Below, one piece after another: positions 45,871-63,811 of a DNA stretch of 64,000 nucleotides; positions within the stretch are counted from its first letter, which is position 1, and every line of letters begins with the position of its first letter. This stretch comes from Sphingomonas kaistensis. GTDB lineage: Bacteria > Pseudomonadota > Alphaproteobacteria > Sphingomonadales > Sphingomonadaceae. The translations under genes were made by a program, and so were the position numbers. The stretch lies in the NCBI RefSeq assembly GCF_036884275.1, contig NZ_CP145607.1, positions 1,847,001 to 1,911,000 of the forward strand, given 5' to 3'. Below the pieces are notes generated by a model. That model ran no database searches. It was not told the origin of the DNA and was given only the letters and a program-made list of their open reading frames with translations.

Positions 45871-46977
45871 TCACTTGCGAACGGTAGTGACCTTGCTGTT
45901 CACAGCTGCTGGCAAAGTGAAGCAGAACTTTGTTCGCGACGGCTCTGACTCGCACCAGATTCTACCCCCATGATTCTCTATGATCTCGCGGCAAATGGAC
46001 AGTCCGATACCGAGGCCGCCCTTCTTGGTAGAAGTGTTTGGCGAGAAGAGTTTGCTTCTTGCTTCCTCCGGAACTCCAGCGCCGTTGTCCGCTATGCAGA
46101 TTTCTACGAAACTTCCGACACGACGCGCTGAGCAATCAAGGCGGGGGTCAGGGTGTCCAATCAAAGCTTCCGCAGCGTTCTTCAGAATGTTCAAGAGCAC
46201 CTGCTCTGCTGGACCCTTGGCGACCAAGACTACTTCAGAACCCGGGCTGATGGTAATCACTGGCTCGACAGGCAAACTGCTCTTGATCAACGTCAGGCTT
46301 TCGCTGATCAGAAGGCTAAGGGGAACTCTTAAGCGGCGGAGAGGGCGTGCGCCTACTATGTCGCGGATTATCTTTAACACTTCTGCAGCCCGAAAGATGG
46401 CGGCCTGCGCTTCGGATACACTACTTAAGAGTACGTCGGCATTCCGGTTGGAGTCGCTGAGTGCGCGTTGACAGATGGAAAGGTAGTTTGTCGCAGCAGC
46501 AAGCGGCTGACTGAGCTCGTGCGCAATCATCGAGGCTGCTGTGCCCATCGCGTTCAAGCGAGATAGCTGCAAAACTTCGGCGTTGAGGCGCCGAATGTTT
46601 GCTTCGGCCTCCATCTCCGCCGTGAGATCACGCACAAAGCCAAGAAAATGGCGGCCGCCAACCGCACTGTGCATTGTTACTGCTAGTTCAACTGGAATCT
46701 CGTGGCCGGCACGATGAAGTGCTGCCAGCTTCACCCGCCTTCCTAGGATACGAACCTCGCCTGTCAGCAGAAAACGTGACATTCCTGCTTGATGCGCTGC
46801 TCTATGTTCCGGAGGAATAATGACATCCCTCATCTGCCTGCCTACGGCATCTCCTGCCGCATAGCCGAATATCTTCTCGGCGTTGCCATTCCAGGCAGTG
46901 ATGATCCCCGCGTCATCGATGACCATGACGGCATCGAGCGAGGTCGAGAGGACTGCTTCGGTGATTGGATCAGACAT
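45871..46977 (-). CDS. FixL-like PAS sensor histidine kinase
   Basis: This 368-residue kinase has one PAS domain (about residues 8-125: DAVMVIDDAGIITAWNGNAE, FLGFVRDLTAEMEAE), then HisKA with RLNAMGTAASMIAHELSQPL and HATPase_c with NILKNAAEALIG, ADNGAGVPEE and GGLGIGLSICREIIENHGG. The layout is that of soluble FixL. Where FixL has its haem-ligating His (SDPHIIG) the aligned segment here is GEVRILG, so it is probably not a haem oxygen sensor. ATG 46977 is used; TTG 46980 is adjacent. No membrane segment is seen. Confidence 0.9.
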   Translation of the reverse strand: MSDPITEAVLSTSLDAVMVIDDAGIITAWNGNAEKIFGYAAGDAVGRQMRDVIIPPEHRAAHQAGMSRFLLTGEVRILGRRVKLAALHRAGHEIPVELAVTMHSAVGGRHFLGFVRDLTAEMEAEANIRRLNAEVLQLSRLNAMGTAASMIAHELSQPLAAATNYLSICQRALSDSNRNADVLLSSVSEAQAAIFRAAEVLKIIRDIVGARPLRRLRVPLSLLISESLTLIKSSLPVEPVITISPGSEVVLVAKGPAEQVLLNILKNAAEALIGHPDPRLDCSARRVGSFVEICIADNGAGVPEEARSKLFSPNTSTKKGGLGIGLSICREIIENHGGRIWCESEPSRTKFCFTLPAAVNSKVTTVRK

Positions 46978-47244
46978 CAAGCAGCAAGCCCCCTGCCCAT
47001 CCTTGTCAAACTTGAGGAGCAGAGGCGCAAGTGCGAGGCAGCGAAACCTCGGGTGTGACGACCGAAGCGAAAGAGGCTGTGAGGAAAATCGTCAGCTCCG
47101 ACCGTCAATGATCTTCTGCTTCAGATTGGTTTAGCAAGTTCTAGCGACCCCTCCGAAATGGACCCTTTCTCGTGAGAATACGGTATTTTCTCGCCGAGTG
47201 ACTTGCCGTTACGAAGGCGTTTCAATCATGTGAGGAGAAGGCCG

Positions 47245-47406
47245 ATGACTAATCCCGATCTCAGCGCGTGTTTGCAAAACGCGCTTACGCATGCCCTTGC
47301 TGCGCAGAACCCGCGGGTGCGCATCGCCTACATGGATCTAGCCGAGTTCTATGACGCGCAAAGGCGGCGTTTAGCGGCTCCTCGGCAGTCCAAACCCATC
47401 CTCTAA
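47245..47406 (+). CDS. Small conserved protein, RVRxAYxDLAxFY family
   Basis: This 53-residue protein starts MTNPDLSACLQNALTHALAA behind AGGAGAAGG. Its RVRIAYMDLAEFYDAQ segment is mirrored by RVRMAYIDLADFYERQ in the gene at 60906, and the preceding Leu/Ala pattern also aligns, so the two are paralogues. Both lie beside a FixL-like kinase. I do not recognise a named family; a small two-helix adaptor is my guess. Confidence 0.65.
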   Translation: MTNPDLSACLQNALTHALAAQNPRVRIAYMDLAEFYDAQRRRLAAPRQSKPIL

Positions 47407-47504
47407 GTTGGTTGAGGTTACGCCGGCAGAAGCAGGCGTGCCAGCAAGGACCCACAAATTCAGACGCGGCGGTGGGGCGCGGCGTGGACCCGAATGGAGC
47501 CGCT

Positions 47505-47876
47505 ATGCTCGAACGAAAAGGCTGGATCGATCGCGAGAGCCGCTCACCTTCGTGGGCAAAGGTTCAGCTTGCGGACGCGTCGCGAACAATCGAGGCGGTC
47601 ATCACGAACATCTCCTCTGGGGGCTGCCGGATAAGAGCAGATTGGCCACTGCGGGTAGGACAATGCCTTAGGGTTCGCGTTCCGGGGGTAGGCAGTCTCG
47701 CGGCGTATACCCGCTGGAGCAGGCCGCCTTACGCAGGGCTGGCCTTCATCGCTGACAGCGAAATCTGGGAGGGGAGAACTGAAGACCCATTGGCGCCAGC
47801 TAGGCGCATGGTTGCCAGGGCTGGTCCAGCTCCCTCATCCCTTTTGGAGCAGACGGAAGCGTTAACGAGATTCTAA
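47505..47876 (+). CDS. PilZ domain protein
   Basis: This 123-residue protein matches the PilZ c-di-GMP-binding fold. It has a basic N-terminal segment ERKGWIDRESRSP standing for the RxxxR motif, VITNISSGGCRIRAD for the [D/N]xSxxG motif, and AYTRWSRPPYAGLAF in the last strand. It starts at ATG 47505. It lies between the small RVRxAY protein and a BLUF gene, suggesting a c-di-GMP output for that module. Confidence 0.78.
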   Translation: MLERKGWIDRESRSPSWAKVQLADASRTIEAVITNISSGGCRIRADWPLRVGQCLRVRVPGVGSLAAYTRWSRPPYAGLAFIADSEIWEGRTEDPLAPARRMVARAGPAPSSLLEQTEALTRF

Positions 47877-47894
47877 AGCGTTGGGAGCCGCCGC

Positions 47895-48368
47895 ATGAGC
47901 ACCAGAGAAGACCAGATACTTCAGGTCGGGTACGTTAGCACTGCTGTTCGTCTTCAAAGTCCTGAAGTAATGCATGCAATTCTTGCCGCCTCTCGCCGCA
48001 ACAATTCGGCGCTGAATGTAACGGGTTTGCTGGTCGCCGGCCGCCGACGCTATCTTCAAGTTATTGAGGGACCGGCCGAGGCGATCGAAGACTTGCTGTC
48101 GAAGATCGAAGCTGATGAACGCCATAAAGGCTTAGTCATTTTCCTGCGCCGAATTGTGCAGGAGCGGAGCTTTGGCGAATGGTCCATGGCGTTCCGCGGC
48201 AGTCCAACCCTTAGCTTCGAGGGTGATTACCGCCGAGCGCTAGAGTGGATGACGCGCGGCATGGAGGAAGGCCGGCTCAAGCAACAGATACTCGCCTTCG
48301 CAAGGCTTTGCGATCTGAAGCAGGGTGGCTTCCCGAGCCACCTGCAAGCAATCTCACAAGCCGCCTGA
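47895..48368 (+). CDS. BLUF domain blue-light sensor
   Basis: This 157-residue protein is a short BLUF protein. The flavin-binding residues have the spacing of AppA: Tyr13, Asn37 (ASRRNN), Gln55 (YLQVIEGP), Trp96 and Met98 (FGEWSM). The canonical NVTGLLV and ADERH motifs are present. After the domain about 50 helical residues remain, with no fused output. It starts 18 bp after the PilZ gene stop, so signalling is probably by protein contact. Confidence 0.92.
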   Translation: MSTREDQILQVGYVSTAVRLQSPEVMHAILAASRRNNSALNVTGLLVAGRRRYLQVIEGPAEAIEDLLSKIEADERHKGLVIFLRRIVQERSFGEWSMAFRGSPTLSFEGDYRRALEWMTRGMEEGRLKQQILAFARLCDLKQGGFPSHLQAISQAA

Positions 48369-48632
48369 CGTTCGATCGCCGTGGGCTGCTTATGCTCCGC
48401 AACGGGTCGGCAGCAACCATCGCGCAGGCTCCTGAGCGAGCGTCCTCTTCTGGTGAGTTCACGGACACCTGAGTGCTCGCTATGGGTCGCAAGCGGACTC
48501 TCGCCACTTAGCTGAACGAGCGCCCGCTTCGGCCAACCTAGCTGCAAGAAGCAGACCTTCTGCTCCCGGCCATTCCTCGCCTTGCTGACGCCCACAAGTC
48601 AGGCTTCGTCGGTTCGAATTTTTTCGTGCCGG

Positions 48633-48659
48633 TGTCACATCGGTCGGGTCTGCATCGTC
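48633..48659 (+). promoter_or_regulatory. ECF41-type promoter
   Basis: TGTCACA at 48633-48639 is followed after exactly 16 bases by CGTC at 48656-48659. This is the promoter consensus reported for ECF41 sigma factors (TGTCACA-N16-CGTC), and it stands 42 bp before the carboxymuconolactone decarboxylase gene that leads the ECF41 operon. It therefore looks like an autoregulated promoter. Confidence 0.8.
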
Positions 48660-48701
48660 ATGGTTTCGAGCGCTTCGATGCTCGTGACAAGGAGACCAAT
48701 C

Positions 48702-49169
48702 ATGATCCCTCGCCTCGACAACCCATCCGCACTATTCCCCGCCGGCTTCAAGGCAATGGTCGCGCTCGAGCAGGCGCTCGCGCAGGCGATCGATCCGGAG
48801 TTGCTCGAACTGGTCAAGCTGAGGGCGTCGCAAATCAACGGCTGCGCCTTCTGCATTTACATGCACACCACCGACTTGCGTAAACGCGGAGTCGACGAGA
48901 TGAAGCTTTACTTGCTCAACGCCTGGCGTGACTCATACCTCTATTCCGGACGAGAGCGGGCGGCGCTTGGTTGGACCGAAGCCCTGACGCGAGTTGCAGA
49001 TGATGGCGCCCCGGATAACGAGTATAATGCGCTCGCCGAACAGTTCAGCGAAGAGGAACGGGTGCAACTGACTTTCGCCATTGGCGCAATCAACGTCTGG
49101 AACCGCCTTCAGGTCGGTTTTCACGTCGCTCATCCGCCACGTGGCGCAGTGATGCGCGATGCCGCCTGA
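48702..49169 (+). CDS. Carboxymuconolactone decarboxylase family protein (AhpD-like)
   Basis: This 155-residue AhpD-fold protein has the redox-active pair in GCAFCIYMHTTDLRKRG, the CxxC-x3-H motif. It begins at ATG 48702 behind AAGGAGA and overlaps the sigma factor start by 11 bases. Genes of this type are the commonest partners of ECF41 sigma factors. It may act as a peroxidase-like reductase, but its target is unknown. Confidence 0.9.
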   Translation: MIPRLDNPSALFPAGFKAMVALEQALAQAIDPELLELVKLRASQINGCAFCIYMHTTDLRKRGVDEMKLYLLNAWRDSYLYSGRERAALGWTEALTRVADDGAPDNEYNALAEQFSEEERVQLTFAIGAINVWNRLQVGFHVAHPPRGAVMRDAA

Positions 49170-50025
49170 CCAGCACCTGGCTGATTTTAAGGCGCAGCGG
49201 CCGCGGTTGCTGCGCCTTGCTTACCGCATGCTCGGTTCACTGAGCGAGGCTGAGGATGTGGTCCAAGACGCCTGGCCGCGCTGGGCAGCAGTGAACGGCG
49301 GAGTCGACGTACCGGCCGCCTATCTCACCCGGATCGTGACTCGCCTGTGCCTCGACCAGCTTAAATCGGCGCGGGTACGACGTGAGGAATATGTTGGCGC
49401 TTGGTTGCCGGAGCCGCTGTTGCAGCAAGCCGACGAGGAGGGGATCGCCGACGACGTAACTCTGACGCTAATGATGGCGATGGAAAGGCTGTCGCCTCTC
49501 GAGCGCGCGGCATTCCTGTTACATGACATCTTCGAAACGCCGCTGAACGAGGTGGCGTTAACGCTGGATCGCGACCCTGCAGCGGTTCGCCAGCTCGCAT
49601 CTCGCGCCCGACGCCACGTTAGCGAGGCGCGGCCGCGATACGTGCTATCCCCGGAAAGTGCCTCGCAGCTTGTGCGCGCATTTCATGAGGCGAGCACGAA
49701 AGGCGACCTCAAGATGCTGAGCGGTATCCTTGCCGACGAGGTTGCAGTCTTCTCCGACGGCGGCGGAAGGGTCCTTGCTTTCCGCAATGTTGTCCGAGGA
49801 ATGGATCGGGTCCTGCGCCTCTTTCAAGGGCTGGCGCGCAAAGCGGCGTACCGACCGCAATTGCTTCGCACCGTGATGATCGATGGCCTTCCCGGCTTCG
49901 TCAGCGTCGATCGCGGGGCGGTGCTGCAGACAACCGCCCTCGAGGTTCGCGACGGCAAGATCACTGCTCTCTACATAGTGCGCAACCCAGACAAGCTGCG
50001 GCACGTCGAAGAGATGCTGGTTTAG
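49159..50025 (+). CDS. ECF41-family RNA polymerase sigma factor (SigJ-like)
   Basis: This 288-residue ECF sigma factor has region 2 with LAYRMLGSLSEAEDVVQDAW and region 4 with LSPLERAAFLLHDIFETPLNEVA, followed by a SnoaL-like C-terminal extension. The ECF41 hallmarks are all present: the linker YVGAWLPEPL, the DGGGR motif in the extension, and the terminal NPDKL. In this group the extension controls activity instead of an anti-sigma factor. It is coupled to the AhpD-like gene and a matching promoter lies upstream. Confidence 0.94.
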   Translation: MPPDQHLADFKAQRPRLLRLAYRMLGSLSEAEDVVQDAWPRWAAVNGGVDVPAAYLTRIVTRLCLDQLKSARVRREEYVGAWLPEPLLQQADEEGIADDVTLTLMMAMERLSPLERAAFLLHDIFETPLNEVALTLDRDPAAVRQLASRARRHVSEARPRYVLSPESASQLVRAFHEASTKGDLKMLSGILADEVAVFSDGGGRVLAFRNVVRGMDRVLRLFQGLARKAAYRPQLLRTVMIDGLPGFVSVDRGAVLQTTALEVRDGKITALYIVRNPDKLRHVEEMLV

Positions 50026-50400
50026 CAAGTCGACCAGGCAAGTTGCTGTAATCGAGCCGAAATTGGGCCGTCCGCTTCCGGCTCGTTCCGCCGCGAAGCA
50101 GACGGTCGGCTAACGGCCAGGAGTAGCCGCACAGTCGCAGAGGGCTGAGTTGCGCCCGTTACGGACGGTCATGGCGGCCGAGCGACCGCCAAAAAGCGGT
50201 CGTCCGTTCAGCTATGGCAATTTCCTCCTATGAGAGAGCAGCAACCCATGCTGCGAAAGCGAGGGTCAGCGGGACAGCGACGATAGCGAGCTTGTCGAGC
50301 AGCCTTTGCTTTCTCTTCCTTCGCGCCTTCTCGCGGCTCTCAACCAATCCAGCCCTCCAAGGTGGCAGCCGACGTGACGAACTAGTCAGTCCGGTGCCGC
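50026..50400. other. Intergenic region
   Basis: Apart from a possible 39-codon membrane peptide at 50228-50347, I see only GTCCGC-type fragments (50070-50210) that resemble degraded copies of the dispersed palindrome. No tRNA or terminator was found. Confidence 0.35.
50228..50347 (-). CDS. Possible small membrane protein
   Basis: A 39-codon frame begins at TTG 50347 behind TTGGAGG. It encodes a very basic head (ESREKARRKRKQRLLDK) followed by one hydrophobic segment (LAIVAVPLTLAFAAWVAALS) that would span the membrane. The positive-inside layout is protein-like. There is no homology support and the start is non-ATG. Confidence 0.35.
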   Translation of the reverse strand: MVESREKARRKRKQRLLDKLAIVAVPLTLAFAAWVAALS

Positions 50401-50772
50401 TTAAATGCGGCAGGCTCGTGCTACCCTTCGGTCGTTGTCGTAACGCTGAATGTAGCGGACGCCTGAGATGCGGAGCATTCGGCAGTTCAGATTGACCCGG
50501 CCTGCGAAGGCCATGCCCAAGAGGCGTCCATACCGGTCTCGGCCTACCGGTTCAATCCGAACGGGGCCTAGCCGCAGCGCTGAGCGCATAGCTTCCTTTG
50601 CCACGCGTGCCTGCCGATCGCTGCAAACGTGATCCCCGAACCTCTGCCGGCATGGTCGCGACTTAGTCGGGTCGGGAGCATCGATTCCGAGCAAGCGCAC
50701 CTCGCCCAAATTACGACAGCGTATCCCATCACCGTCGATCACCGTGGCAGCGAGGCAAAGCAGCAAAGACAT
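50401..50772 (-). CDS. Thermonuclease (SNase) family protein
   Basis: This 123-residue SNase-like OB-fold nuclease has TVIDGDGIRC, VRLLGIDAPD and GRDRYGRLLGMAF, which carry the metal-site Asp and the two catalytic Arg positions. The usual DAPE is DAPD here, changing the general-base Glu to Asp, so activity may be lowered. The N-terminus is short and only weakly signal-like. It stands alone between intergenic stretches. Confidence 0.82.
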   Translation of the reverse strand: MSLLLCLAATVIDGDGIRCRNLGEVRLLGIDAPDPTKSRPCRQRFGDHVCSDRQARVAKEAMRSALRLGPVRIEPVGRDRYGRLLGMAFAGRVNLNCRMLRISGVRYIQRYDNDRRVARACRI

Positions 50773-50913
50773 GCCCCCAGGTCTAAAGGAGTAAGTGGTG
50801 GCCGGAAAGCGGGCCGAGCGCTGGTCTGCCCCGGGGACTGTCTATCCGCACGGTCAGGCTGAGCGGTGTCGCGGTCGTGATCCGCATTTTTCCGAGGGGC
50901 AGCCACAGAAGCT

Positions 50914-50943
50914 AATGTCTGCTTTCGACCCATTTCAGACATT
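50914..50943. repeat. Dispersed palindromic repeat, copy 1
   Basis: AATGTCTG and CAGACATT arms enclose CTTTCGACCCATTT. This is one of at least six related 30-bp palindromes between 50.9 and 56.8 kb. Confidence 0.75.
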
Positions 50944-51099
50944 CGACAGCGTGAGCCTGCAAAACTTCACAAGCAAGTGGCCATGGAAAGCTCAATATAG
51001 CATTGCGCCTCCTCGCGAGCTTCGCCTTAGGCCCAAATCGGAAGTTCCGGTAAATCTCGCTTAAACTCGCCGTGGTGAATGGGTCTTTGGAGGCCCATA

Positions 51100-51573
51100 A
51101 TGCACTCAGCTGATCTTACTCACATGTCTCTCGACGGTCTCTTTCAGAAGCTGAAGGCTGCGCACGTTGAGCTTCGGACTTGTATCGACGAGATGGAAGC
51201 GCTCACGACCGGCCCAGCAATCAGTAGGCCGGTCTACTGTTCGGCCAGGTTTCGGATCAGCAATGCAAGCTTGAAGCGTCGCGCAACCTTTAACTTCGTT
51301 TGCGACAAGCTAAGCGAATCGGCGACGGCCGAAGAAGCAGATATGATCGCCCGTTTACGCAGTGAGGATCTTGCCTTGGTAGGGCGCTCAGCTCAGCATG
51401 TTCGCGATTGGCCGGCAGAGCAAATCGAAGCTGACTGGCAAGGGTATTGCAAGGCTTCGCGATCGATCAGAGCCGCGATGGCGAGAGAGCTCAAACATGT
51501 CGAAGAAACTCTCTTCCCAATTCTTCTGCGACACAGCCTCAGGCACCGCAGTCACATACCAAAAGCTGCATAG
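51100..51573 (+). CDS. Hemerythrin-like helical protein
   Basis: This 157-residue all-helical protein starts at ATG 51100, behind GGAGG; an in-frame ATG at 51079 has no ribosome site. The first helix contains LKAAHVELR and the last ELKHVEETLFPILLRHS, which resemble the first and last iron-ligand helices of hemerythrins. The middle His ligands are less clear (SAQHVRDW). It is therefore a divergent hemerythrin-like protein at best. Confidence 0.55.
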   Translation: MHSADLTHMSLDGLFQKLKAAHVELRTCIDEMEALTTGPAISRPVYCSARFRISNASLKRRATFNFVCDKLSESATAEEADMIARLRSEDLALVGRSAQHVRDWPAEQIEADWQGYCKASRSIRAAMARELKHVEETLFPILLRHSLRHRSHIPKAA

Positions 51574-51662
51574 CCGCAGCTTACCCGCCGTTGCTTCGAG
51601 GCGTTCACGCAGCGCTTGTGACTAAGAACTTGGACAAGGTGACCAGAACGCCTTGCAACTCG

Positions 51663-51824
51663 TCAGTTCTCTTTGTGGGTTCGCGCTTCGTTGCGCTCCT
51701 GATCGGAAGCGTCCTTGTCTAACTGGCTGGCCACTAGTTTGACCTGAGCGGCTAGGATGTCGCTCTGGGATGCAGCCCACTCGCGAAGTTTTCTTGCGCG
51801 TTCTCGTTTGTTTTTGGGGGTCAT
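51663..51824 (-). CDS. Small charged helical protein
   Basis: This 53-residue frame starts MTPKNKRERARKLREWAASQ and continues SDILAAQVKLVASQLDKDAS with a charged tail. It is predicted to be a single long helix. AAAGGGTGG precedes the ATG. I do not recognise it, but composition and ribosome site support it over the overlapping longer frame, which is Ser/Pro/Arg-rich. Confidence 0.55.
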   Translation of the reverse strand: MTPKNKRERARKLREWAASQSDILAAQVKLVASQLDKDASDQERNEARTHKEN

Positions 51825-52370
51825 CAGCCACCCTTTAGGTTGTTGAGTTCAGTCCGGGGTGGCAGCCCATGCCGAGAGTTGTTGCCGAGTCAGAAGTAGG
51901 GCCGCCAATTGCAGATAGGCAGGTGAAGCTTACCGCCTCGTTATCAGGCGCAAGCACCTTTGTTCTCGCGTCTGTAGAGCCACGCTCCAGATAATTACCC
52001 ACCTTCAGCCACGAGCGACTTGCATAATCGTTCTTGATCCGTCTCAAAGGGTTGTGAAGCGACTCGGACCAGAGAGCGTTCGAGAGCTCGCGCTTGAGGC
52101 GCTTGAGAAGCCGCCGCTGCCTCTCACCTTGGGCCCGTCCGGCAGACGCGTGCTTTCGCGTTGGCGCTTGCTTGGCTGCGCCACTGCGCCACGGATGATG
52201 TTCTACCGCGATCTACCTGGCGGTGGGAGTGCCGCGACCGCTTGCCATCTCCGACTTTGAGGATCGATCGCGGGCAGCGACCTGATGTCCACTTCCGACC
52301 CAAAGAAGACATTTCGCTTACGACTTTGAAACGGAAGGCAGACACAGAGATGCACTCCGCGCAAGCGTGG
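51825..52370. other. Long intergenic region with one palindromic repeat
   Basis: No well-supported gene is visible in these 546 bp. A 70-codon minus frame at 51835-52047 is open but has no ribosome site or recognisable motif. The region includes palindrome copy 2. Confidence 0.4.
52284..52313. repeat. Dispersed palindromic repeat, copy 2
   Basis: GATGTCC..TTCGACCC..AGACATT with several mismatches between arms. It has the same orientation as copy 1. Confidence 0.6.
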
Positions 52371-52697
52371 TCAGAAGAGCGCCATCTGGCCCTGTATGCC
52401 ACGTCGCCTTAGGCTAGCGAGCTGTTCGGGGCTGAGAGGCTCCCGGAGCTCGATTCCACATGAGTTCCCAACCGACCACGCGACCCGTCCAGCAAGAGGA
52501 AGATCACCGACCCGCAACAGAATTTGCGTTTCCTGTTCTGGCAGCTCGCTTCCTGAAAGGCGGACACCCCGATCGCTCACATCGCTGACGATCACGGCTA
52601 CCCACGTTGGCGGCGCAGCTTGGCCGAAGACCGCGGGCTGAACACTTCCACCAGGAACGATGCGATCTCGACATAGCAATTCGAGCCCTTCGGCCAT
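52371..52697 (-). CDS. PilZ domain protein
   Basis: This 108-residue protein has VIVSDVSDRGVRLSGS, the DxSxxG motif, and GRVAWSVGNSCGIEL in the last PilZ strands. An Arg pair in the N-terminal region (CRDRIVPGG) may stand for the RxxxR motif. It starts at ATG 52697. It is the second PilZ protein of the accessory region and stands alone. Confidence 0.75.
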   Translation of the reverse strand: MAEGLELLCRDRIVPGGSVQPAVFGQAAPPTWVAVIVSDVSDRGVRLSGSELPEQETQILLRVGDLPLAGRVAWSVGNSCGIELREPLSPEQLASLRRRGIQGQMALF

Positions 52698-52984
52698 CGT
52701 TTCACTCCACGCAAAGAACTGGCGCTCGCAAGGCCAGCAGAACGTGTTCTAGTCGACGATTGTTGCGGTGCGATGAGCAAGCCTCGATCTGGCTTATTAT
52801 GAGACAATGAGGAGGAGACTTCGCCCTACGGGGTGCATGCCTCGCTTCTCTTACAGAGACGACACGTTTCACCGTCAGGTTGTATGCATTGGCTGTCCCA
52901 ATCAACACAAGATGTGCACCCTCAGCATCTTGGGTGCCATTTCCGTGGTAGGAGGAGTGTAAGTCACTCAGTTTAGGAGCATCC

Positions 52985-53491
52985 GTGTCTGATCGGCGTA
53001 GCACTCGTAGTGACCAGCGCAGCGCTAACGAGGGGAGCGGGCAGCCTAAAAATTGCCTTAAGTCTGAGCGTTCGAACTTGAAGAAGGCGGTCATCAGCGC
53101 AGAGGCTCTTCTTGCGCAAACCGGAGAGACTGCTCCAGCGAAGGTGAATATAGATGGATGCCTTATCCGCAGGATGTTGAGGGCGCGACGTTCCCGTGAG
53201 CAGCAGTTTGGCCCGAACCTCTTTGCGGACCCAGCTTGGGACATCCTACTGGAAGCGTACGCGGCAGAACTGGAACAGCAAAGGATTTCTGTAACTGCTC
53301 TCAGTGAGGCCTCAGCCGTACCACCTACGACGGCGCTGAGGTGGCTAAGCAAACTTGAAGAGGACGGCTGGTTGCGGCGGAAAGCGGATCCTTACGACGG
53401 GCGGCGCTTCTGGGTTGCCCTGACTGAGCAAGCCTCAGTGCAACTCCGAACCTACTTCGACAATGTCGAACCGGGGTTGTTCCTGGTTTGA
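52985..53491 (+). CDS. MarR-like winged-helix transcription regulator
   Basis: This 168-residue protein starts with GTG 52985 behind TTTAGGAGC. The first 70 residues are polar and probably flexible. The second half is a winged helix: ISVTALSEASAVPPTTALRWLSKLEEDGWLRRKADPYDGRRFWVALT, with the recognition helix and the DxR wing of MarR proteins. The ligand and targets are unknown. Confidence 0.82.
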   Translation: MSDRRSTRSDQRSANEGSGQPKNCLKSERSNLKKAVISAEALLAQTGETAPAKVNIDGCLIRRMLRARRSREQQFGPNLFADPAWDILLEAYAAELEQQRISVTALSEASAVPPTTALRWLSKLEEDGWLRRKADPYDGRRFWVALTEQASVQLRTYFDNVEPGLFLV

Positions 53492-53653
53492 GTCATCTTC
53501 TCTGCCAAGCGCCAGGAGACGACACCTAGCCATGTCGAGGTGAGCGCCTACGTTGGCCGGGAGACCCAGACGGTCTACCATCTCGATGGCTTTATCCACG
53601 TGGTTCCGAACCGTGCGGATGTCTTGAGTTTGAGGCTCGCCGCCATATCGCAT
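53435..53653 (-). CDS. Small hypothetical protein
   Basis: This 72-residue frame from ATG 53653 contains NHVDKAIEMVDRLGLPANVG and AHLDMARCRLLALG, which look like two packed helices of a real protein. Its 3' end overlaps the MarR-like gene tail by 57 bp. No family is recognised. Confidence 0.45.
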   Translation of the reverse strand: MRYGGEPQTQDIRTVRNHVDKAIEMVDRLGLPANVGAHLDMARCRLLALGREDDSNQEQPRFDIVEVGSELH

Positions 53654-55823: not shown

Positions 55824-55857
55824 CGCGTCAAGCATCGCGCTCGGCTAAGCACCGCGA

Positions 55858-56046: not shown

Positions 56047-56067
56047 GGTTTCCAACGCCTGTCTAGG

Positions 56068-56694
56068 CTAAGCGTAAGCGTATGGACCGCCCGCGCGCAG
56101 GGCAGCCTGGTAGGCGGGGCGGGCGTGGATACGGCCAAGCCAAGCGGACAGGCTGGGGCGACCTTCGCGGGCGTTGGCGCGTGCGGCTGCGGCTTCCAAG
56201 GGAAAGCTCATCATGACGTCCGCAGCCGTGAACTCGCTGCCGGCGAACCAAGGCCGCTGTGCAAGCTGGGCCTCAACATAGTTGAGGTGGACATCGACCA
56301 TCGGTCTGAACTTGCGCAGCCCAGCCTTGCCGAACAGCGGGATGCGGGCGAGCACCAGATTAACCAGCAGCGGCGGCATCAATGAGCCTTCCGCATAGTG
56401 CAGGAAGTGACGGTAGAGCAGCGCCCCCTCGCGCTCGGCCGGCGCGCCCAGGCGGCCAGCGGCCTTGTCCACCAGATACTCGACGATCGCGCCGGTTTCG
56501 GCAACGACTTGGCCATCATCCTCGATCAACGGCGACTTGCCGAGGGGGTGGACCCGCTTAAGTTCGGGCGGCGCGAGCATCGTCCGCTTGTCGCGCTGGT
56601 AGCGCCGCACCTCATAGGGCAGCTCAAGCTCTTCCAGCAGCCACAACACCCGCTGCGAACGCGAGTTTTCGAGATGGTGGACGACAATGGTCAC
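56068..56694 (-). CDS. Glutathione S-transferase
   Basis: This 208-residue GST starts at GTG 56694 behind GGAGCGG. The thioredoxin-like N-terminal domain has VHHLENSRSQRVLWLLEEL, HPLGKSPLIEDDG and the ETGAIVEYL glutathione-binding segment. The helical C-terminal domain has FTAADVMMSFPLEAA. Its base composition is closer to the core chromosome than to its neighbours. Confidence 0.92.
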   Translation of the reverse strand: MTIVVHHLENSRSQRVLWLLEELELPYEVRRYQRDKRTMLAPPELKRVHPLGKSPLIEDDGQVVAETGAIVEYLVDKAAGRLGAPAEREGALLYRHFLHYAEGSLMPPLLVNLVLARIPLFGKAGLRKFRPMVDVHLNYVEAQLAQRPWFAGSEFTAADVMMSFPLEAAAARANAREGRPSLSAWLGRIHARPAYQAALRAGGPYAYA

Positions 56695-56754
56695 ACCCGC
56701 TCCTCAGCACTGCTTTCGCAAGAGATCAACACGTAGGGGACGTGGGAGAGGCCG

Positions 56755-56784
56755 AATGTCCGCTTTGGGTCGAAAGCAGACATT
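56755..56784. repeat. Dispersed palindromic repeat, copy 6
   Basis: AATGTCCGCTTTGGG and TCGAAAGCAGACATT; the two halves are nearly complementary. A partial copy (CGTCCACTTGAAAGCGGACG) follows at about 56821-56840. Confidence 0.7.
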
Positions 56785-57186
56785 AGCAAGCTAGCTGAAC
56801 GAACGTCAGCTATCCGCTGGCGTCCACTTGAAAGCGGACGTTCCCGCTTTCACCATCAGGGGGCCCGAGCAACAAGGGTGGCGACCCATCGAGGATTGTT
56901 CCGAGCCATCAAGGAGCCGCCGATCACAAAAGTTACATGAGACCGGCGTATGAGCAGGCAAAGGAACGGGCCGATTGAAGCGAGGTGGTGAGTCCTCTGC
57001 TCGGCCCTGATTAGCGGGCGTCAGGGAACGGATCGCTTGGCTACAAGCGTGGTAGAGCAAGCGTCCTCATCTGAGAAAGCGCGAGGTGCCTCTAGATGGA
57101 TTGGCGGAGGGCAGGACCGTCCACGCCGTCGAGAACCGCTTCCACCGGGATGGAGACTGAGTTAGGCTACGTGTGGGCGTCGCTCC
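56785..57186. other. Intergenic region
   Basis: This ~400-bp stretch holds a partial palindrome near 56821 and nothing else that I can support. Confidence 0.35.
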
Positions 57187-57606
57187 TCAGCCTGCGGAAG
57201 CCACACTCTGCAATTCCGCAAAGCCGTTGAACTGAGCTCTAAGATCTGGATCAGCGAGGTCACATGTCAACGCCTCGACGCTCTGTGCCAGCGTGGCGCC
57301 GACCGGACCGTCACTTACCGCCTTGATTGACGCCATGCTCCACGTCCCAAATTGACGCTCATCGGCATACCGCTCCGCAAGCAGCACGCAAGCATAGTGC
57401 CGCTGATCTCGCTGAATGCGAGCATAGGTCGCCCGCACTGCGTCAGTTGGCCCCTCAAGAGCCTGCAAGAAGCGACGCTCCCCCGCTACAAGGAGCCCCG
57501 TGACGTTCTGCCGATCATTGTTGCGGCGCGAGACCGCAAGGATGTCCAAACAGATATGCGGTGTGATCACCCCACGAGACGAGCTGATGTAGACAAGTTG
57601 AAGCAT
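57187..57606 (-). CDS. BLUF domain blue-light sensor
   Basis: This 139-residue short BLUF protein has Tyr6, Asn30, Gln48, Trp89 and Met91 at exactly the AppA spacing, and NVTGLLVAGERRFLQALEGP. Only about 45 residues follow the domain, predicted helical. It is most similar in layout to the BLUF protein at 47895. It is divergent from a hemerythrin-like gene. Confidence 0.92.
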   Translation of the reverse strand: MLQLVYISSSRGVITPHICLDILAVSRRNNDRQNVTGLLVAGERRFLQALEGPTDAVRATYARIQRDQRHYACVLLAERYADERQFGTWSMASIKAVSDGPVGATLAQSVEALTCDLADPDLRAQFNGFAELQSVASAG

Positions 57607-57770
57607 GCGAGATCCCCACGTGGCTAGCGTGGTACCCCATGCTTCTTACGTTCGGGTAAATAGTCGCAACGGCGTTACCTAGCTGTAAGGCCACCTAAGA
57701 ACCTGTTCGGCGCTTGTTTAGGTCATCGTCATCGCACGCGATTTCGGCGTGCAATCGACGAGGCGCAATC

Positions 57771-58214
57771 TTGAGACGAACAGACTCGCTACGAAGGCAG
57801 CACGACGCAGCTGGCAGCCTGGTGCAGAAGCTAAGCACCGCGATAGGCAACTACTCCGGATCAGCAGACGCGTATCCGATCGCGATCGATCTGGCCAAGC
57901 TTACAGGCCTTCTGCGGATACACTTCGCTCAGGAAGATCGCAGTCTCTATCCGGAGATGATGGCCAGCTCGAGCAACGAGGTTGCAGCTACGGCTGCAAC
58001 TTTCCAGCGCGAAATGGGAGACATCGGTCCGATCTTCGAGAAGTTCGTGGAGCGGTGGGGGACGTCAGCCGCGATTGCTGCCGCTTTCGCCACATTCAGG
58101 ATTGAAGCCAGCGTCCTTTTCGCCAGGCTAGCTGATAGAATACGACGCGAGAACGAAGAGCTCTATCGTCTGGCTGACGAGATGCATCAGCCTCAACAAC
58201 CACGCGATGCTTGA
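57771..58214 (+). CDS. Hemerythrin domain protein
   Basis: This protein of about 147 residues carries SLRRQHDAAGSLVQKL and LLRIHFAQEDRSLYPEM, which match the first and central iron-ligand helices of bacterial hemerythrins (H..., HxxxE). The best start is TTG 57771 after a GAGG; an earlier TTG at 57714 has no ribosome site. It could sense oxygen, nitric oxide or redox state. It is divergent from the BLUF gene. Confidence 0.75.
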   Translation: MRRTDSLRRQHDAAGSLVQKLSTAIGNYSGSADAYPIAIDLAKLTGLLRIHFAQEDRSLYPEMMASSSNEVAATAATFQREMGDIGPIFEKFVERWGTSAAIAAAFATFRIEASVLFARLADRIRRENEELYRLADEMHQPQQPRDA

Positions 58215-58259
58215 TTGATCAGCACAACTGAATAGGTCTTCCCGCGGCACACACACCCG

Positions 58260-58480
58260 GACCGGGAGGATCACCTCCAGCTCTACGAGGCTATGCCGGT
58301 GTTTATCACCTACCTTACAGCCTTACCCGATGGTGCGGCCACTACGCTGTTCCGCCCAGATCCGTATGAGCGTAATGCGAAGGTCCTGGCGCGCTTCGGC
58401 GATGATGAGCCGCAGATGCGGCCCGCAAGACCGCCACTCACCATCGATCTGAATGCTTTGCCGTCAAACCTTGCCGCAAG
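58260..58480 (+). pseudogene. Remnant of an L,D-transpeptidase (YcbB-like) C-terminus
   Basis: The frame from 58260 reads DREDHLQLYEAMPVFITYLTAL and then FRPDPYERNAKVLARFG, which matches the C-terminal end of YcbB-type L,D-transpeptidases after the catalytic domain. The catalytic HGC region is absent and the frame then degenerates into Arg-rich sequence. It is a fragment left by deletion or recombination. Confidence 0.55.
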
Positions 58481-58527
58481 AGCAGCTTCGAGATCCTTAC
58501 CGCCCAGCGGCAGAATGGCGACAGGCC

Positions 58528-58563
58528 GGCGCCGAAGGGCCCGGCGCCGAAGGGCCCGGCGCC
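58528..58563. repeat. Short tandem repeat
   Basis: GGCGCCGAAGGGCCC occurs twice in tandem (period 15), followed by another GGCGCC. Each unit is itself partly palindromic. It lies just after the transpeptidase remnant. Confidence 0.55.
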
Positions 58564-58622
58564 ACGTAAGACGTCACGGTGAACGGTCATGCCTATTCAG
58601 CAGGAAAGTGGTTTCCGCGTGA

Positions 58623-59155
58623 CGCTTCCACTTTCCAAGCTGCATGGGGGCAGCAACGCTCAGCAGCAACCGTCCGCTTTCGGCCACTTACCGAAGCGTC
58701 GACCAGATGAAGCTGCACTCCTAATACTGGTGGATAGCGGAATGGCCGCTTGCGGGTGAGCACCAATGAGTATCATACGCTCGTTCATGCGGAGGCTGCG
58801 TGTTAGCTTAGCGCCCGATCCGGACTCAGGTCACGCGCTACGTTGCCCTAGCGGACGCTCAAAGCACAGACATCACGCAAACTTTCCTACGCTTCACATT
58901 GTTGCCGGAGTGCTGGCTCGCCTCATCCCCGGAGCTTAAACCCAGTCCGCTTCTTCCTTAATCCTGCCGAGCAGCCACGGCTACAAAAGCCCGGTCTGGC
59001 GCAAGCCGCGACAAATGACCTCGCGCTCCAGCTTGTTCGCCTGACCTAATTTGGTGCAATGGTCCGGCGGTCTGCCGATCGTTCGTCGAATTAGATATGC
59101 TAGTCAGCGACCGGCTGTTACCGTCGACCTTGTTTACTCCGGGGGGAGATGAAGC
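58623..59155. other. Long intergenic region
   Basis: No supported gene is visible in these ~530 bp. Fragments of the dispersed palindrome occur near 58672, and a minus-strand piece reading NKLEREVICRGLRQTGLL looks like a protein scrap without a start. The right end has the GGGGGGAG ribosome site of the next kinase. Confidence 0.4.
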
Positions 59156-60670
59156 TTGGGCTATGCACAGCCGATCACGGTCGACCACTCGAACTTGGCC
59201 ATCGAGAAGCTTCCGGTAGCTGCTTACTTCATCGACAAGGACGGTTTCATCTCTGGGTTCAACCAGAAAGCACGGGACCTATGGGGACGTTCACCCGAGG
59301 CAGGTGAACGCTGGTGCGGGTCCTACAAGTTATTCACACCCGCAGGTTTGCCGATCGACCGGCGGGATTGCCCCATGGCGCAATACCTGCGCGATGGGAT
59401 GTTTCCCCCAACAGGAACTGCCCTGCTCCAACGGCCGGACGGTGATTTTCGGATGATCAAGCCGCATCCAAGCCTGGTGAAAGGCGAAAACGGAGAAATC
59501 ATCGGCTTCATGAACGTGGTTATCGACGTCACCGATCTGGAACCATCGTCCCGCATCAGCGACAGCGAGGAGATGCTGACCAGCGTCCTGTCATCGAACT
59601 CGGTCGCGTTCACCGTCTTTGACTACGAGAACCGGCGCGTGACCAAGGCCAATGACAGCTGCTTGCGCCTGATGAACCATGAGCGGGCCGACCTCGATGC
59701 GAGTACATCCGGCTATCGTGACTTCATGAGCAACTGCGAACAGCTCCTGGACGCGGCGGCGATCGACGAAGCACGGGTTAAAGGTTGCTGGTCGACCTAC
59801 GAAAAAAGGTTCGATCGCCCCGACGGTCGCAGCCTGGCCGTGCGGGTCAGCTCGGCGCCCATCACCGCCTTACCTGGTCATTGTCTTGTTTGCATTGAGG
59901 ACCTCACGGCCCACAAGGAGACCGAGCAAGAGAACCAGATCCTGAAGTCGGAAGTGCATCATCTGTCCAGGCTGTCAGCCATGGGAACGATGACCGCGAT
60001 CCTTGCACACGAAGTCGCCCATCCCTTCTCGATCATCAAGAACGCTCTGTTTCTGATCGAGAATGATGAGGAAGTAGGGAAGCAGGTTGAGATCTCTGAC
60101 ACACTGAAACAGGCATTTAAATTGATCAAGCACGAGGCGGACCGGGGACACCGCCTTGTCGAGCGGATGCGCAACTTCTCCCGTCCTGACCTCGCCAACA
60201 AGAGCAAGGTGATTATCAGGGACGTTATTGACTGTTGCGTCGAAATGATTTCACTCCGGTTCCCTGGCTTATGTGTGAACACCAGCATCAGTCGCAAGGT
60301 CGGTTGTCTGATCGGCGATCCTGTTCAGATCGAGCAAGTGCTCCTTAACGTCATGCGAAATGCTGCCGAGGCCATGGACGGAAAAGGATTCTTGCAAGTC
60401 GATGTAAGGCAACGATCAGGCTCCGTAATAATCTCGATTGCCGATGAAGGAACTGGCTTCAGTGATCAGGCGCTTGCGACAGCCTTCACTCCGTTCAAGT
60501 CCACGAAGATGAACGGGACCGGACTCGGCCTGTCGATCTGTCGCTCCATCCTTGAACAGCACGGCGGAACCATTGCCATTGTGCCTCGCGAGCGGGGAAG
60601 CTGCATAACCATGCGATTGCCAAGTGTCGACCAGCAGGTTCCAACGGTTCAGGCATTGGACCTCGACTGA
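59156..60670 (+). CDS. PAS sensor histidine kinase
   Basis: This 504-residue soluble kinase has two PAS domains (about residues 10-125 with YFIDKDGFISGFNQKARDLW, and 140-255 with FTVFDYENRRVTKAND). HisKA follows with RLSAMGTMTAILAHEVAHPF and HATPase_c with NVMRNAAEAMDG, ADEGTGFSD and GTGLGLSICRSILEQHGG. The kinase half closely matches the gene at 45871. The start is TTG 59156 behind GGGGGGAG; an out-of-frame ATG at 59149 could mislead. A FixJ-like regulator downstream is the natural partner. Confidence 0.9.
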   Translation: MGYAQPITVDHSNLAIEKLPVAAYFIDKDGFISGFNQKARDLWGRSPEAGERWCGSYKLFTPAGLPIDRRDCPMAQYLRDGMFPPTGTALLQRPDGDFRMIKPHPSLVKGENGEIIGFMNVVIDVTDLEPSSRISDSEEMLTSVLSSNSVAFTVFDYENRRVTKANDSCLRLMNHERADLDASTSGYRDFMSNCEQLLDAAAIDEARVKGCWSTYEKRFDRPDGRSLAVRVSSAPITALPGHCLVCIEDLTAHKETEQENQILKSEVHHLSRLSAMGTMTAILAHEVAHPFSIIKNALFLIENDEEVGKQVEISDTLKQAFKLIKHEADRGHRLVERMRNFSRPDLANKSKVIIRDVIDCCVEMISLRFPGLCVNTSISRKVGCLIGDPVQIEQVLLNVMRNAAEAMDGKGFLQVDVRQRSGSVIISIADEGTGFSDQALATAFTPFKSTKMNGTGLGLSICRSILEQHGGTIAIVPRERGSCITMRLPSVDQQVPTVQALDLD

Positions 60671-60905
60671 ACTGACGCAGTGGCTTGCCGAGCGGAGGTC
60701 TTCGTTCGCACCATTGCCGGAGAGAGGACGTCTGATTTGTCTTGGATGCCAAGCCGCGCGAGGTGTTCAGAAATCTTGTAAGAGCCTAGGAGCTGCCGAA
60801 GCTGACTTCGTGGGACGCTGCGGAATCCACCATCGGGTCAAACCTATATTAACCGCGCGCCCGCCTGAGCATAGCCTAACTTGATCATAGTCGGGAGTGC
60901 TGGCC

Positions 60906-61070
60906 ATGGGACGAGAAGAACTTCGCACGTCTTTGGACGCCGCATTGACCAAGGCGTTCGCCGCTCGAAACGAGCGGGTCCGCATGGCTTACATTGACCT
61001 TGCCGACTTCTACGAGCGGCAGCTTCGCAAGAACTATGGTGCGGGCAGCGGTTCCGTTTTCCTGCGCTAA
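60906..61070 (+). CDS. Small conserved protein, RVRxAYxDLAxFY family
   Basis: This 54-residue protein starts MGREELRTSLDAALTKAFAA and has RVRMAYIDLADFYERQLRK, aligning throughout with the gene at 47245. Both copies are next to a FixL-like kinase and upstream of a c-di-GMP gene and a BLUF gene. The family is unknown to me. It is too short for most gene callers. Confidence 0.65.
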   Translation: MGREELRTSLDAALTKAFAARNERVRMAYIDLADFYERQLRKNYGAGSGSVFLR

Positions 61071-61193
61071 GCTTTAGCAATGACGAAGGCGCTCCGTGTC
61101 GGCAGGGACTACTGAAAGACCACCGGGAGAACCCGGTATTTGATGTTACCAGCCGGCCGGGTAGCTTTCTGCTGACCATTAGCAGGCTAGACG

Positions 61194-62618
61194 ATGATGA
61201 TGGCGACGACTGCCCTAACTGCCTCGATGCCATGCCTGCCCGTCACGAGCATCAGGCCGGAACTGCACGGCCTTAGTTCACAGTTAGCGTGCAACTGGAA
61301 CCTGCTCCCGGTGAAGGCGGTACGCGAACTCGCCGCTCGGCCGCAACCGTTGGCTGTGTTCGAGGACGCGATCACGGGACTGGCCAACATCTTGGCCCTG
61401 CGGCACATGATCGACGGCTTGATCGAAGCTCGGCGTGACTTTGGATTGATCCTCCTTGAGGTTCATGATCTTTGCACGGGTAAAGACGTGGCGAACTATG
61501 GTCGTCAGCAGCAGATTGCCTCCGCGTTGGACGGCATGGTCAGGATCGACGGAGCTGTTGCGCGGCTGAACGAAAGCACCTTCGCGCTGCTGCTCCCCGG
61601 CGTGACATCCCGCCGCACGCTGGAGCGCTGTGCGGCAAAGACATGTGTCAGGATCAAGAACGCATTGGCCGACGGACAGCTGATCCCCGTGCAAGCTATT
61701 GCCGGAGCTGCGATATACCCTTTGCACGGCCGCACCCGCGAGGACGTGCTGCGGTCCGCCGGCGCCGCCCTCGCCGAGACCAGGAACCCGGACCGGCAGC
61801 AAGTAAAAGTGTTCACCCGGTCGTTGGAGCTTCGAGCGAGACAGCACCAAGCAGCGCTCCAGCGTGCTGCAGCATGCATTGCACGGCCAGATGGTTTAGC
61901 CCTGGTCTATCAGCCGAAAATCAACCTCAAGACCGGGCAGGTCGCGGGGTACGAGGCCCTATTGCGCTGCCAGGATTCGCTTGGCCGCAAACACCCTCCG
62001 ATGTGGATCGCGCCGGCTTTTTCGATACGAGACCTGTCCGTGACGATCGGCACGCGAGTGTTGGACCAGGCACTTGATTTCCTCGGCAAACTTTGTCGCT
62101 CGAACCGGACCGATGCTCATGTCGCGATTAACGTCACGGCGACGGAATTGTCTGATCAGCATTGGGTTGCCAGCGTGCTCCGTAGCCTTGAGCGAAGCGG
62201 CATCTGCCCATCGGCGCTCGAGATCGAAGTTACTGAAACCGTTCTCCTTCATGGATCGTCCACCACTGTGATTCGCAGCCTGCAGAAACTTCGCAGCGCC
62301 GGCACCAAGGTCAGCCTCGACGACTTTGGCACCGGCTATGCGTCGCTTACTCACCTGCGTTCATGCCCTGTCGATACTCTGAAGGTCGACCGCAGCTTCG
62401 TCCGCTGCCTTCACGAGTCAGACTCGGCTGCGATTGTCCGCAGTATGGTCGACCTTGCAAGCGACCTACAGTTGAACGTCGTCGCCGAGGGCGTGGAGAA
62501 TGCCTCCCAGCATCGCCAATTGACCGATTGGGGCTGTCGTCAAGGCCAAGGCTTCTACTACGCTCGCCCTGCCGGCGCCGAGTATTGGCTGAAATCCAGC
62601 AAGATCACGAGCCGGTGA
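61194..62618 (+). CDS. c-di-GMP phosphodiesterase (degenerate GGDEF + EAL)
   Basis: This 474-residue protein has a degenerate GGDEF domain (about residues 55-205) in which the active motif is replaced by LNESTFALLL. It is followed by an EAL domain with intact catalytic residues: YEALLR (Glu254), INVTATEL, EIEVTET, LDDFGTGYAS (Asp376-377), LKVDRSF (Lys397) and VAEGVEN. It should hydrolyse c-di-GMP. No membrane segment is seen. Its stop abuts the ATG of a BLUF gene, suggesting light control in trans. Confidence 0.92.
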   Translation: MMMATTALTASMPCLPVTSIRPELHGLSSQLACNWNLLPVKAVRELAARPQPLAVFEDAITGLANILALRHMIDGLIEARRDFGLILLEVHDLCTGKDVANYGRQQQIASALDGMVRIDGAVARLNESTFALLLPGVTSRRTLERCAAKTCVRIKNALADGQLIPVQAIAGAAIYPLHGRTREDVLRSAGAALAETRNPDRQQVKVFTRSLELRARQHQAALQRAAACIARPDGLALVYQPKINLKTGQVAGYEALLRCQDSLGRKHPPMWIAPAFSIRDLSVTIGTRVLDQALDFLGKLCRSNRTDAHVAINVTATELSDQHWVASVLRSLERSGICPSALEIEVTETVLLHGSSTTVIRSLQKLRSAGTKVSLDDFGTGYASLTHLRSCPVDTLKVDRSFVRCLHESDSAAIVRSMVDLASDLQLNVVAEGVENASQHRQLTDWGCRQGQGFYYARPAGAEYWLKSSKITSR

Positions 62619-63113
62619 ATGCTCCGCTTCTGCCTCTACGTCAGTACATGTCGCTTGGCGCGGGGAAGTGCGATGGAGGAGGTGTATCACCTGGTCGCCG
62701 GCGCCCGTGCATCCAACCGGCGCCTTTCGGTCAGCGGTACGCTGATTTTCTCGGGGACGTACTTTGCACAGTATCTTGAGGGACCCGAGGAAAACTTGTC
62801 GTTGCTTTTCCAGCGCATTTGCCGCGATCCAAGGCACGGCCAGATCAGAGTTCTGCTGGACAGCCGGCGTGAGAGACGGGAGTTCCCCCGCCGGTCACTC
62901 CAGTTCTCGGGTCCCTCGATGTTTGTTGACCGGCACATCGGCCAGTTCTTCGACGAGGACTTGCAAGGACAACAACGCAAGCTTGCCGTTGGACAGCTCC
63001 TCCAAATGATGCGGGGCACTACTCAAGCAATTGCCGATGGTCGGCGCTTGCCGCCGCGAAGCAATTGTTCCGGGTCGGAGGTCGATCAATTTCTGCTGGA
63101 GTCGCCCGCGTGA
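62619..63113 (+). CDS. BLUF-like protein with altered Trp/Met motif
   Basis: This 164-residue protein has the BLUF core: Tyr7 (CLYVST), Asn33 (ASNRRLSVSG) and Gln51 (YFAQYLEGP), with two extra residues between Tyr and Asn. The usual FGEWSM segment is FPRRSL, so Trp and Met are replaced by Arg92 and Leu94. Flavin binding is therefore plausible but the photocycle may differ. The gene starts directly after the EAL stop and overlaps the FixJ-like gene. Confidence 0.85.
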   Translation: MLRFCLYVSTCRLARGSAMEEVYHLVAGARASNRRLSVSGTLIFSGTYFAQYLEGPEENLSLLFQRICRDPRHGQIRVLLDSRRERREFPRRSLQFSGPSMFVDRHIGQFFDEDLQGQQRKLAVGQLLQMMRGTTQAIADGRRLPPRSNCSGSEVDQFLLESPA

Positions 63114-63811
63114 GCAGCATGGGAGATGCAAAATCAGTCGATCCGAAGGTCCCAGGTCCAAAGATCGCCTACGTCGTCGATGATGATCCGACGTTCAGGC
63201 GGTCGCTGCTGCTGTTGCTTGAAGCGGCGGGATGGGCCGTCCAGGATTTTAGCTGCGGCGAAGATTTCCTTGCCGAGGTCGATCAGCTGAGGCCAGGCGT
63301 GCTCCTGTTGGATCTTAGGATGCCTGGCATGAGCGGTCTCGATCTGCTGGAGAAAGGCGGTGCTCGCCTGCTCAATTTTGCGATTATCATCCTAACTGGA
63401 CATGGCGACGTCGACGCGGCGGTCCGTGCGCTCAAGGGTGGTGCGGTGGACTTCTTGGAAAAGCCCTTCGACGGCCTTCAGCTGCTCGCCATGCTCGACA
63501 GCAATCTCGCCCAACTACTCAACAGCTTGGAATTTGCCCGGCGCGAACGGGAAGCCGTGGCGCGCGTCGGGCAGCTCAGCAATCGAGAGCGCGACGTCCT
63601 CAGCGGTCTGTTGGCAGGCGCACCCCACAAGGTAATTGCGAGGCATCTCGGGATCAGCGATCGAACCGTCGAAATGTATCGCAACAACATGGTCCGGAAG
63701 CTAGGCGCTAAAAGCACCAACGAAGCGCTTCATCTTGGCATGCTCGCCAAGGTTCAGCCTGCCGAGGTCAGCGGGGGGTCTGTTCAAGTCACTACCGGGA
63801 AATCCCCTTAG
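63110..63811 (+). CDS. FixJ-family response regulator
   Basis: This 233-residue regulator has an N-terminal receiver (YVVDDDPTFRRSL, phospho-acceptor in LLLDLRMPGMSG, ILTGHG, LEKPF) and a LuxR-type C-terminal HTH (QLSNRERDVLSGLLAGAPHKVIARHLGISDRTVEMYR). GTG 63110 overlaps the BLUF stop and has CTGGAG upstream; ATG 63119 is the alternative. The FixL-like kinase at 59156 is its likely partner. Confidence 0.92.
   Translation: MSSMGDAKSVDPKVPGPKIAYVVDDDPTFRRSLLLLLEAAGWAVQDFSCGEDFLAEVDQLRPGVLLLDLRMPGMSGLDLLEKGGARLLNFAIIILTGHGDVDAAVRALKGGAVDFLEKPFDGLQLLAMLDSNLAQLLNSLEFARREREAVARVGQLSNRERDVLSGLLAGAPHKVIARHLGISDRTVEMYRNNMVRKLGAKSTNEALHLGMLAKVQPAEVSGGSVQVTTGKSP

Follow-up and report, generated by a model that had tools for sequence, protein, structure and literature searches.

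The 64,000-nucleotide stretch of Sphingomonas kaistensis DNA analyzed here (the window; G000:C1:1847001-1911000 of a 2.79-Mb genome in one contig) carries a single low-GC signaling region near a chaperone-usher operon, and at the core of this region are genes for an EAL-domain protein, a short BLUF protein (BLUF_B), and a FixJ-like response regulator that, judging from their spacing, constitute a tight operon. The best explanation we can offer, held tentatively and with somewhat less than even confidence, is that the region would convey a light input to two destinations, c-di-GMP and a FixL/FixJ-like pathway with effects on surface structures.

The EAL gene (61194..62618, + strand) ends in a TGA at 62616-62618 that abuts the ATG of BLUF_B at 62619 (62619..63113, +), and the regulator gene begins either at an ATG 5 bp after BLUF_B (63119..63811, +) or at a GTG at 63110 that overlaps the BLUF_B stop codon. 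Just upstream are a kinase with PAS domains and HisKA/HATPase (HK_B; 59156..60670, +; Pfam and NCBIfam) and a small protein of 54 residues (smB; 60906..61070, +) that AlphaFold2 predicts to be a two-helix hairpin. Pfam matches and an alignment of the EAL protein to 5m3c show that the EAL blocks, at residues which we take to be the catalytic ones, are kept and that the GGDEF domain is degenerate, so the protein is a likely c-di-GMP phosphodiesterase. At the flavin site of BLUF_B, whose residue roles we likewise assume, Tyr, Asn, and Gln are kept, while the usual Trp is replaced by Arg and the usual Met by Leu, and both substitutions count against the favored explanation. Leu is found at this position in 29 of 42 members of clade B, the BLUF group associated with FixJ-like regulators, in which tree analyses place BLUF_B, versus 5 of 51 other BLUFs; the Arg occurs in 1 of the 42, namely, BLUF_B itself. 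The regulator (receiver plus LuxR helix-turn-helix by Pfam) scored 199.9 bits against the NCBIfam FixJ model, under its cutoff of 255, and HK_B and a second kinase of the window, HK_A, scored 125.1 and 239.1 bits against the FixL model, both under its cutoff of 850; these scores also weigh against the favored explanation. The best-scoring named relatives of the regulator include proteins from Sphingomonas and other sphingomonads, as well as from Bradyrhizobium.

Clade-B BLUFs and FixJ-like genes are neighbors well beyond this genome. Within the genus, a FixJ-like gene lies within 5 kb of all four clade-B loci (G000, G429, G437, and G433) and of none of the 51 other BLUFs (Fisher test, 2.9e-6). 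Across the family, a clade-B profile matched at least 193 of 397 genomes at E≤1e-12, many of them weakly, with the best 10 candidates per genome scored (the best 18 and 7 in two other profile searches). Among the best-ranked 37 family matches outside our own genome (L230-L266), 35 had a called BLUF; within 5 kb of these BLUFs lay a FixJ-like gene in 12 loci, a kinase gene in 11, and an EAL gene in 5. The remaining 23 of 35 had no FixJ-like gene within that distance, which counts against the favored explanation. The EAL gene lies at most 18 bp upstream of the BLUF gene on the same strand in four family clade-B loci (L230, L231, L233, and L265), and L233 has EAL, BLUF, regulator, and kinase together, as in the window. 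All 18 regulator-linked BLUFs of our table fall on one branch of 41 rows (SH-aLRT 97), in a quick tree built from few columns. Approached from the regulator side, the linkage is far sparser, with a clade-B BLUF at 1 of 80 named FixJ-like loci, a Novosphingobium metagenome-assembled genome (L156), and this also tells against the explanation. The table comprises 55 genus and 38 family rows with genes called by a simple codon-usage script; genus loci L063, L070, L076, and L098 and family loci L240 and L258 were left out for having a BLUF profile match and no called BLUF, and the regulator (58 bits) and kinase (74 bits) of L076 were below the cutoffs used. The 40 family loci fetched were the top 37 plus three from further down the list, at ranks 40, 41, and 46 (ranks 38 and 39 were passed over). 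Two of these three, L268 (rank 41) and L267 (rank 46), were chosen with their FixJ-like neighbors already known, so that the count over all 38 called family rows is 14, and the count used here, without the three out-of-order loci, is 12 of 35. As a separate observation, a KaiC-type ATPase (Pfam KaiC) lies in or by the regulator-kinase set neighboring a clade-B BLUF at L241:3685-5175 and L268:4211-5725, and a third family genome with a clade-B BLUF has one at L263:3057-4562, recognized by inspection of the sequence only.

Pairing of an EAL protein with a short BLUF is known in kind. In Rhodopseudomonas palustris, a short BLUF protein, PapB, is reported to act with an EAL phosphodiesterase, PapA, that is a solo EAL (PMC8846402). 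The window resembles this system in encoding its short BLUF and its EAL protein in separate, adjacent genes and in keeping the catalytic EAL blocks. It differs in that, in contrast to PapA, a degenerate GGDEF accompanies the EAL domain and in that a FixJ-like regulator follows in the operon. A narrower reading, which we consider unlikely, is that BLUF_B acts on the EAL protein only, as in this precedent, and that the cotranscribed regulator would answer to its kinase alone. The abutting EAL and BLUF_B genes, like the close EAL-BLUF spacing at the four other clade-B loci, fit such a pair; however, 13 clade-B loci (12 among the 35, plus others in the genus, e.g., G437) have a FixJ-like gene with no EAL gene directly beside the BLUF, which argues that the regulator link is independent of the EAL. 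One long-branch BLUF that is not in clade B (L097:6642-7028; G304:C2:532797-533045) is 11 bp from an EAL gene, and EAL-BLUF pairing may therefore have arisen more than once.

Other described systems share some of these components. The PAS-HisKA kinase and receiver-LuxR regulator recall FixL/FixJ, although here the scores fall under the NCBIfam cutoffs, and BLUF and EAL partners are added. In Synechocystis, a short BLUF, PixD, pairs with a response-regulator-like protein, PixE; PixE is a PatA-type protein not known to have a LuxR output, whereas the receiver partner here carries a LuxR helix-turn-helix. In Escherichia coli, the blue-light pathway of BluF, BluR, and ycgZ-ymgABC is reported to use a BLUF fused to a degenerate EAL that acts on a MerR-like repressor (PMC3509220). 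As portrayed there, that region likewise combines small proteins with a BLUF, an EAL-type domain, and output through a phosphorelay, but in the window the two domains are encoded by separate genes and the EAL retains its blocks. Short BLUFs have been recorded in sphingomonads, with Sphingobium xenophagum listed with two (PMC4844311). In the titles and abstract openings searched, we found no description of a BLUF/EAL pair with a FixJ-like partner or of the small protein. The arrangement is real and partly conserved, and what is new in it is the FixJ-like partner and the hairpin protein.

A second set of genes lies to the left. HK_A (45871..46977, - strand) is a FixL-class kinase with one PAS domain and HisKA/HATPase by Pfam, NCBIfam, and solved-structure matches; its best structural matches include FixL kinase chains, and its PAS domain matches FixL heme-PAS chains. 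It is followed by smA (47245..47406, +; 53 residues; ORF scan, alignment, and profile search), a PilZ-domain protein (47505..47876, +; Pfam and motif), and the short BLUF_A (47895..48368, +; Pfam and trees), the last three on a common strand and separated by 98 and 18 bp. ORF and Pfam scans recover, where it placed them, all of the genes that the earlier note named, but its list omitted a third short BLUF between the two sets (BLUF_C; 57187..57606, -; Pfam and tree), a PilZ-like ORF (52371-52697, -; BLAST and motif only), and genes past the window end, where a MarR-like gene, a PAS kinase (L099:1533-2660), and further MarR-like genes precede a chaperone gene and an usher gene.

The earlier note took the two sets for parallel modules of the same order, and we consider it very improbable that both arose by duplication of one block. 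The similar gene order and the small proteins, which are indeed paralogues at 45% identity, are what such an origin has in its favor. The kinase blocks, described as near-identical, proved to be only 34% identical between HK_A and HK_B over 270 residues, the common ground being FixL-class motifs, and HK_A is closer to other kinases, with 38% identity over 361 residues to one from another genome (L119) that has a FixJ-like gene as its neighbor. BLUF_A and BLUF_B are 32% identical over 92 residues and belong to different lineages; in trees of 54 and 93 BLUFs, BLUF_A, BLUF_B, and BLUF_C fall in three separate places. EAL and PilZ are unrelated families, and smB is closer to a protein of G411 (57% identity) than to smA. 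No 9-mer is common to the upstream regions of the smA and smB genes. Duplication of one module was accordingly rejected on kinase identity, small-protein identity, and BLUF tree placement, and we propose that the smA-PilZ-BLUF_A set is a separately assembled neighbor within the region. The right-hand set stands as a real EAL-BLUF-regulator operon whose parts are found again elsewhere in the family and on plasmids of Sphingobium, although not as a copy of the left-hand set; overall, what the earlier note observed is partly confirmed and its interpretation is partly supported.

PilZ proteins that bind c-di-GMP typically carry RxxxR followed by [D/N]xSxxG. Neither of the two PilZ-like proteins of the window has RxxxR before its NxSxxG or DxSxxG (the PilZ-domain protein keeps NxSxxG), so a receptor role is not assured, which is a further point against the favored explanation. 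Both motifs occur in order in PilZ proteins of L034 and L252 and of plasmids pEP1, pTK1, pTomMM15b, and pTomRC1a, and in the L092 PilZ they lie in different halves of the protein. A tblastn search with BLUF_B reached Sphingobium plasmids, and one with the pEP1 BLUF matched 17 Sphingobium records at E≤1e-20, of which we viewed 9 together with one Sphingosinicella plasmid. On pEP1 and pTomMM15b a regulator and a PilZ gene are divergent from the BLUF gene; pTK1 adds to this arrangement a MASE1 protein and a second regulator; and on pMSHV and pTomRC1a a regulator is near the BLUF. No regulator is near the BLUF on pTomTYG65a, 73a, 64a, and 46a (4 of the 9 Sphingobium plasmid loci viewed), and these count against the favored explanation, while the Sphingosinicella match has a regulator 2.2 kb from its BLUF. 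Plasmids pEP1, pTK1, pMSHV, and pTomMM15b are typed as conjugative. Genes annotated SigJ and AhpD (L276:9336-10405) lie ~4 kb from the BLUF of a Sphingobium plasmid, and in the window an AhpD-like gene and then a SigJ-like sigma factor gene follow BLUF_A (48660-50025).

The small protein belongs to a little-known accessory family. A two-row model matched only our own genome among 397 family genomes at E≤1e-3, and a six-row model (A2) gave 19 matches at the same threshold in 16 of the 61 genus genomes, in which there are 43 FixJ-like matches. A FixJ-like match lies within 2.5 kb of 9 of the 19, with 0.06 expected, and of 6 of the 13 that are not in the model; model A2 holds 6 of the 19, L038 and L039 having been added after their loci were viewed, and the loci viewed cover all but two of the 19 (G433:1653721 and G404). 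Expected numbers here and below were computed from match lists and rounded genome sizes. Of the best 11 matches (E≤2.2e-6), 10 lie within 7 kb of a FixL-like kinase or a FixJ-like regulator, the exception being G411, where the small protein is alone; BLUF genes are that close to 3 of the 11, and Pfam-confirmed EAL or PilZ genes to 4. The count of 10 of 11 excludes G416 and G415, which were tabulated with their regulators already known, and a PilZ-like BLAST call in L039 that Pfam did not confirm was excluded from the counts. The small protein's association is therefore with FixL/FixJ-like genes and not, as the earlier note had it, with BLUF genes. Two of the next 8 matches (E up to 3.4e-4) are by a FixJ-like match and 6 are not, and those in G422:C107 and G434, perhaps with others of these 6, look like members of another short family. 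A 13-row model (best 18 candidates per genome scored) had matches at E≤1e-4 in 8 of the 397 family genomes, 3 of them in the genus, and no plasmid match was found at E≤0.01. AlphaFold2 predicts a two-helix hairpin (mean pLDDT 87; ~96 to 98 over residues 11 to 40), and a fold search returned no PDB match at E≤0.001. Under the favored explanation, the small protein would assist kinase/regulator pairs, most likely as a connector or brake binding one of the two. In G435 and G399 (L038:260-2587 and L100:479-2836) it lies between a similar protein of 415 to 422 residues, with no Pfam match in the L100 copy, and a FixJ-like gene, and a 1541-residue ORF follows in both genomes.

These counts also bear on whether the small protein is itself the center, as a FixL/FixJ-like connector or brake in the genus to which the BLUF and c-di-GMP genes are incidental neighbors. 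We judge this improbable: kinases or regulators near 10 of the best 11 matches against BLUFs near 3, and a hairpin predicted to be stable, would suit it, yet it leaves the EAL-BLUF-regulator spacing unexplained, and the protein is solitary in G411 and away from FixJ-like matches in 6 of the next 8. For the favored explanation, the scarcity of BLUF neighbors is again a point against.

Composition raises a further alternative. GC content is 65 to 69% left of 45 kb, 55 to 62% over 45 to 64 kb, and 68% ~12 kb past the window end, and the region might be a hot spot gathering signaling genes, in which co-location would reflect gene gain and paralogue buildup rather than one pathway. The drop in GC at 45 kb agrees with this, as does the clustering of three kinases and several MarR-like genes with three BLUFs from separate lineages, but the same tightly spaced pairs reappear on plasmids and beyond the genus, and the small-protein/regulator neighborhood is far above chance, so that we regard it as unlikely. 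ARAGORN over the window and Rfam over 40 to 64 kb (up to E 0.5) found no tRNA and hence no such insertion site. An EcfG-type promoter pattern with at most 1 mismatch gave 8 matches in the window versus 13.7 expected, i.e., no signal. Other genes of the region, at 57714-58214 and 51100-51573, encode a hemerythrin-domain protein (E 1.2e-12) and a second, weak candidate (E 0.003, under the Pfam cutoff). Four related MarR-like genes lie at 52985-53491 in the window and at L099:836-1327, 3919-4368, and 5007-5504, and similar genes adjoin FixJ-like genes in G145, G416, G415, G353, G433, and G429. A second short ORF family (window 45639-45833; L034:8386-8586) adjoins the same signaling genes in the window and in G429.

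The usher gene lies 7.4 kb past the regulator in the downstream chaperone-usher operon, and because this operon is ~7 kb downstream, surface attachment is a likely target. A similar usher is present in 20 of the 61 genus genomes, with a FixJ-like match within 10 kb in 5 of the 20 (G000, G145, G416, G353, and G440; 0.23 expected) and not in the other 15. Outside the genus, in G091 (L236), a BLUF-regulator-kinase set abuts SCPU, chaperone, usher, and SCPU genes. Together these neighborhoods suggest pili as a possible target. SCPU was rejected as a pilus marker, as the two PF05229 matches of our genome are elsewhere and the usher downstream of the window belongs to the TcfC/CooC_C type.

Returning to the favored explanation, the working core would be the EAL-BLUF_B-regulator operon, preceded immediately by the genes for HK_B and the small hairpin protein. 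BLUF_B, by its fold and residues, may sense blue light via a flavin and act in trans on the EAL enzyme, altering c-di-GMP breakdown as PapB does with PapA, and also in trans on the FixL/FixJ-like pair, altering transcription, with surface attachment as the likely target and the small protein as a possible connector or brake. In its favor we count the packing of the three genes, the kept EAL blocks, the clade-B linkage to FixJ-like genes, the regulator, PilZ, and BLUF sets on pEP1, pTK1, and pTomMM15b, the EAL genes within 18 bp at four family loci, the small protein by FixJ-like matches in 9 of 19 cases, the usher by them in 5 of 20, and the pilus neighborhood of G091. What the analysis shows are the genes, their spacing, and the neighborhoods that recur; the mechanism, including a light response, its direction of effect, the binding partners, and the target genes, is what we infer.

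A wider possibility, which we regard as real but doubtful, is that the sphingomonad short-BLUF clade comprises detachable light-sensing subunits of FixL/FixJ-like systems that would gate in trans, by light, a kinase responding to another cue, with EAL or PilZ proteins tying the switch to c-di-GMP and pili and the 54-residue hairpin serving as a connector in the genus. If the favored explanation holds, a single blue-light protein would feed a second messenger and a transcription factor alike, providing a compact and testable case, and orphan short BLUF proteins would gain candidate partners. If the small protein does act on kinase/regulator pairs, its family would open a new way into the tuning of FixL/FixJ-like systems.
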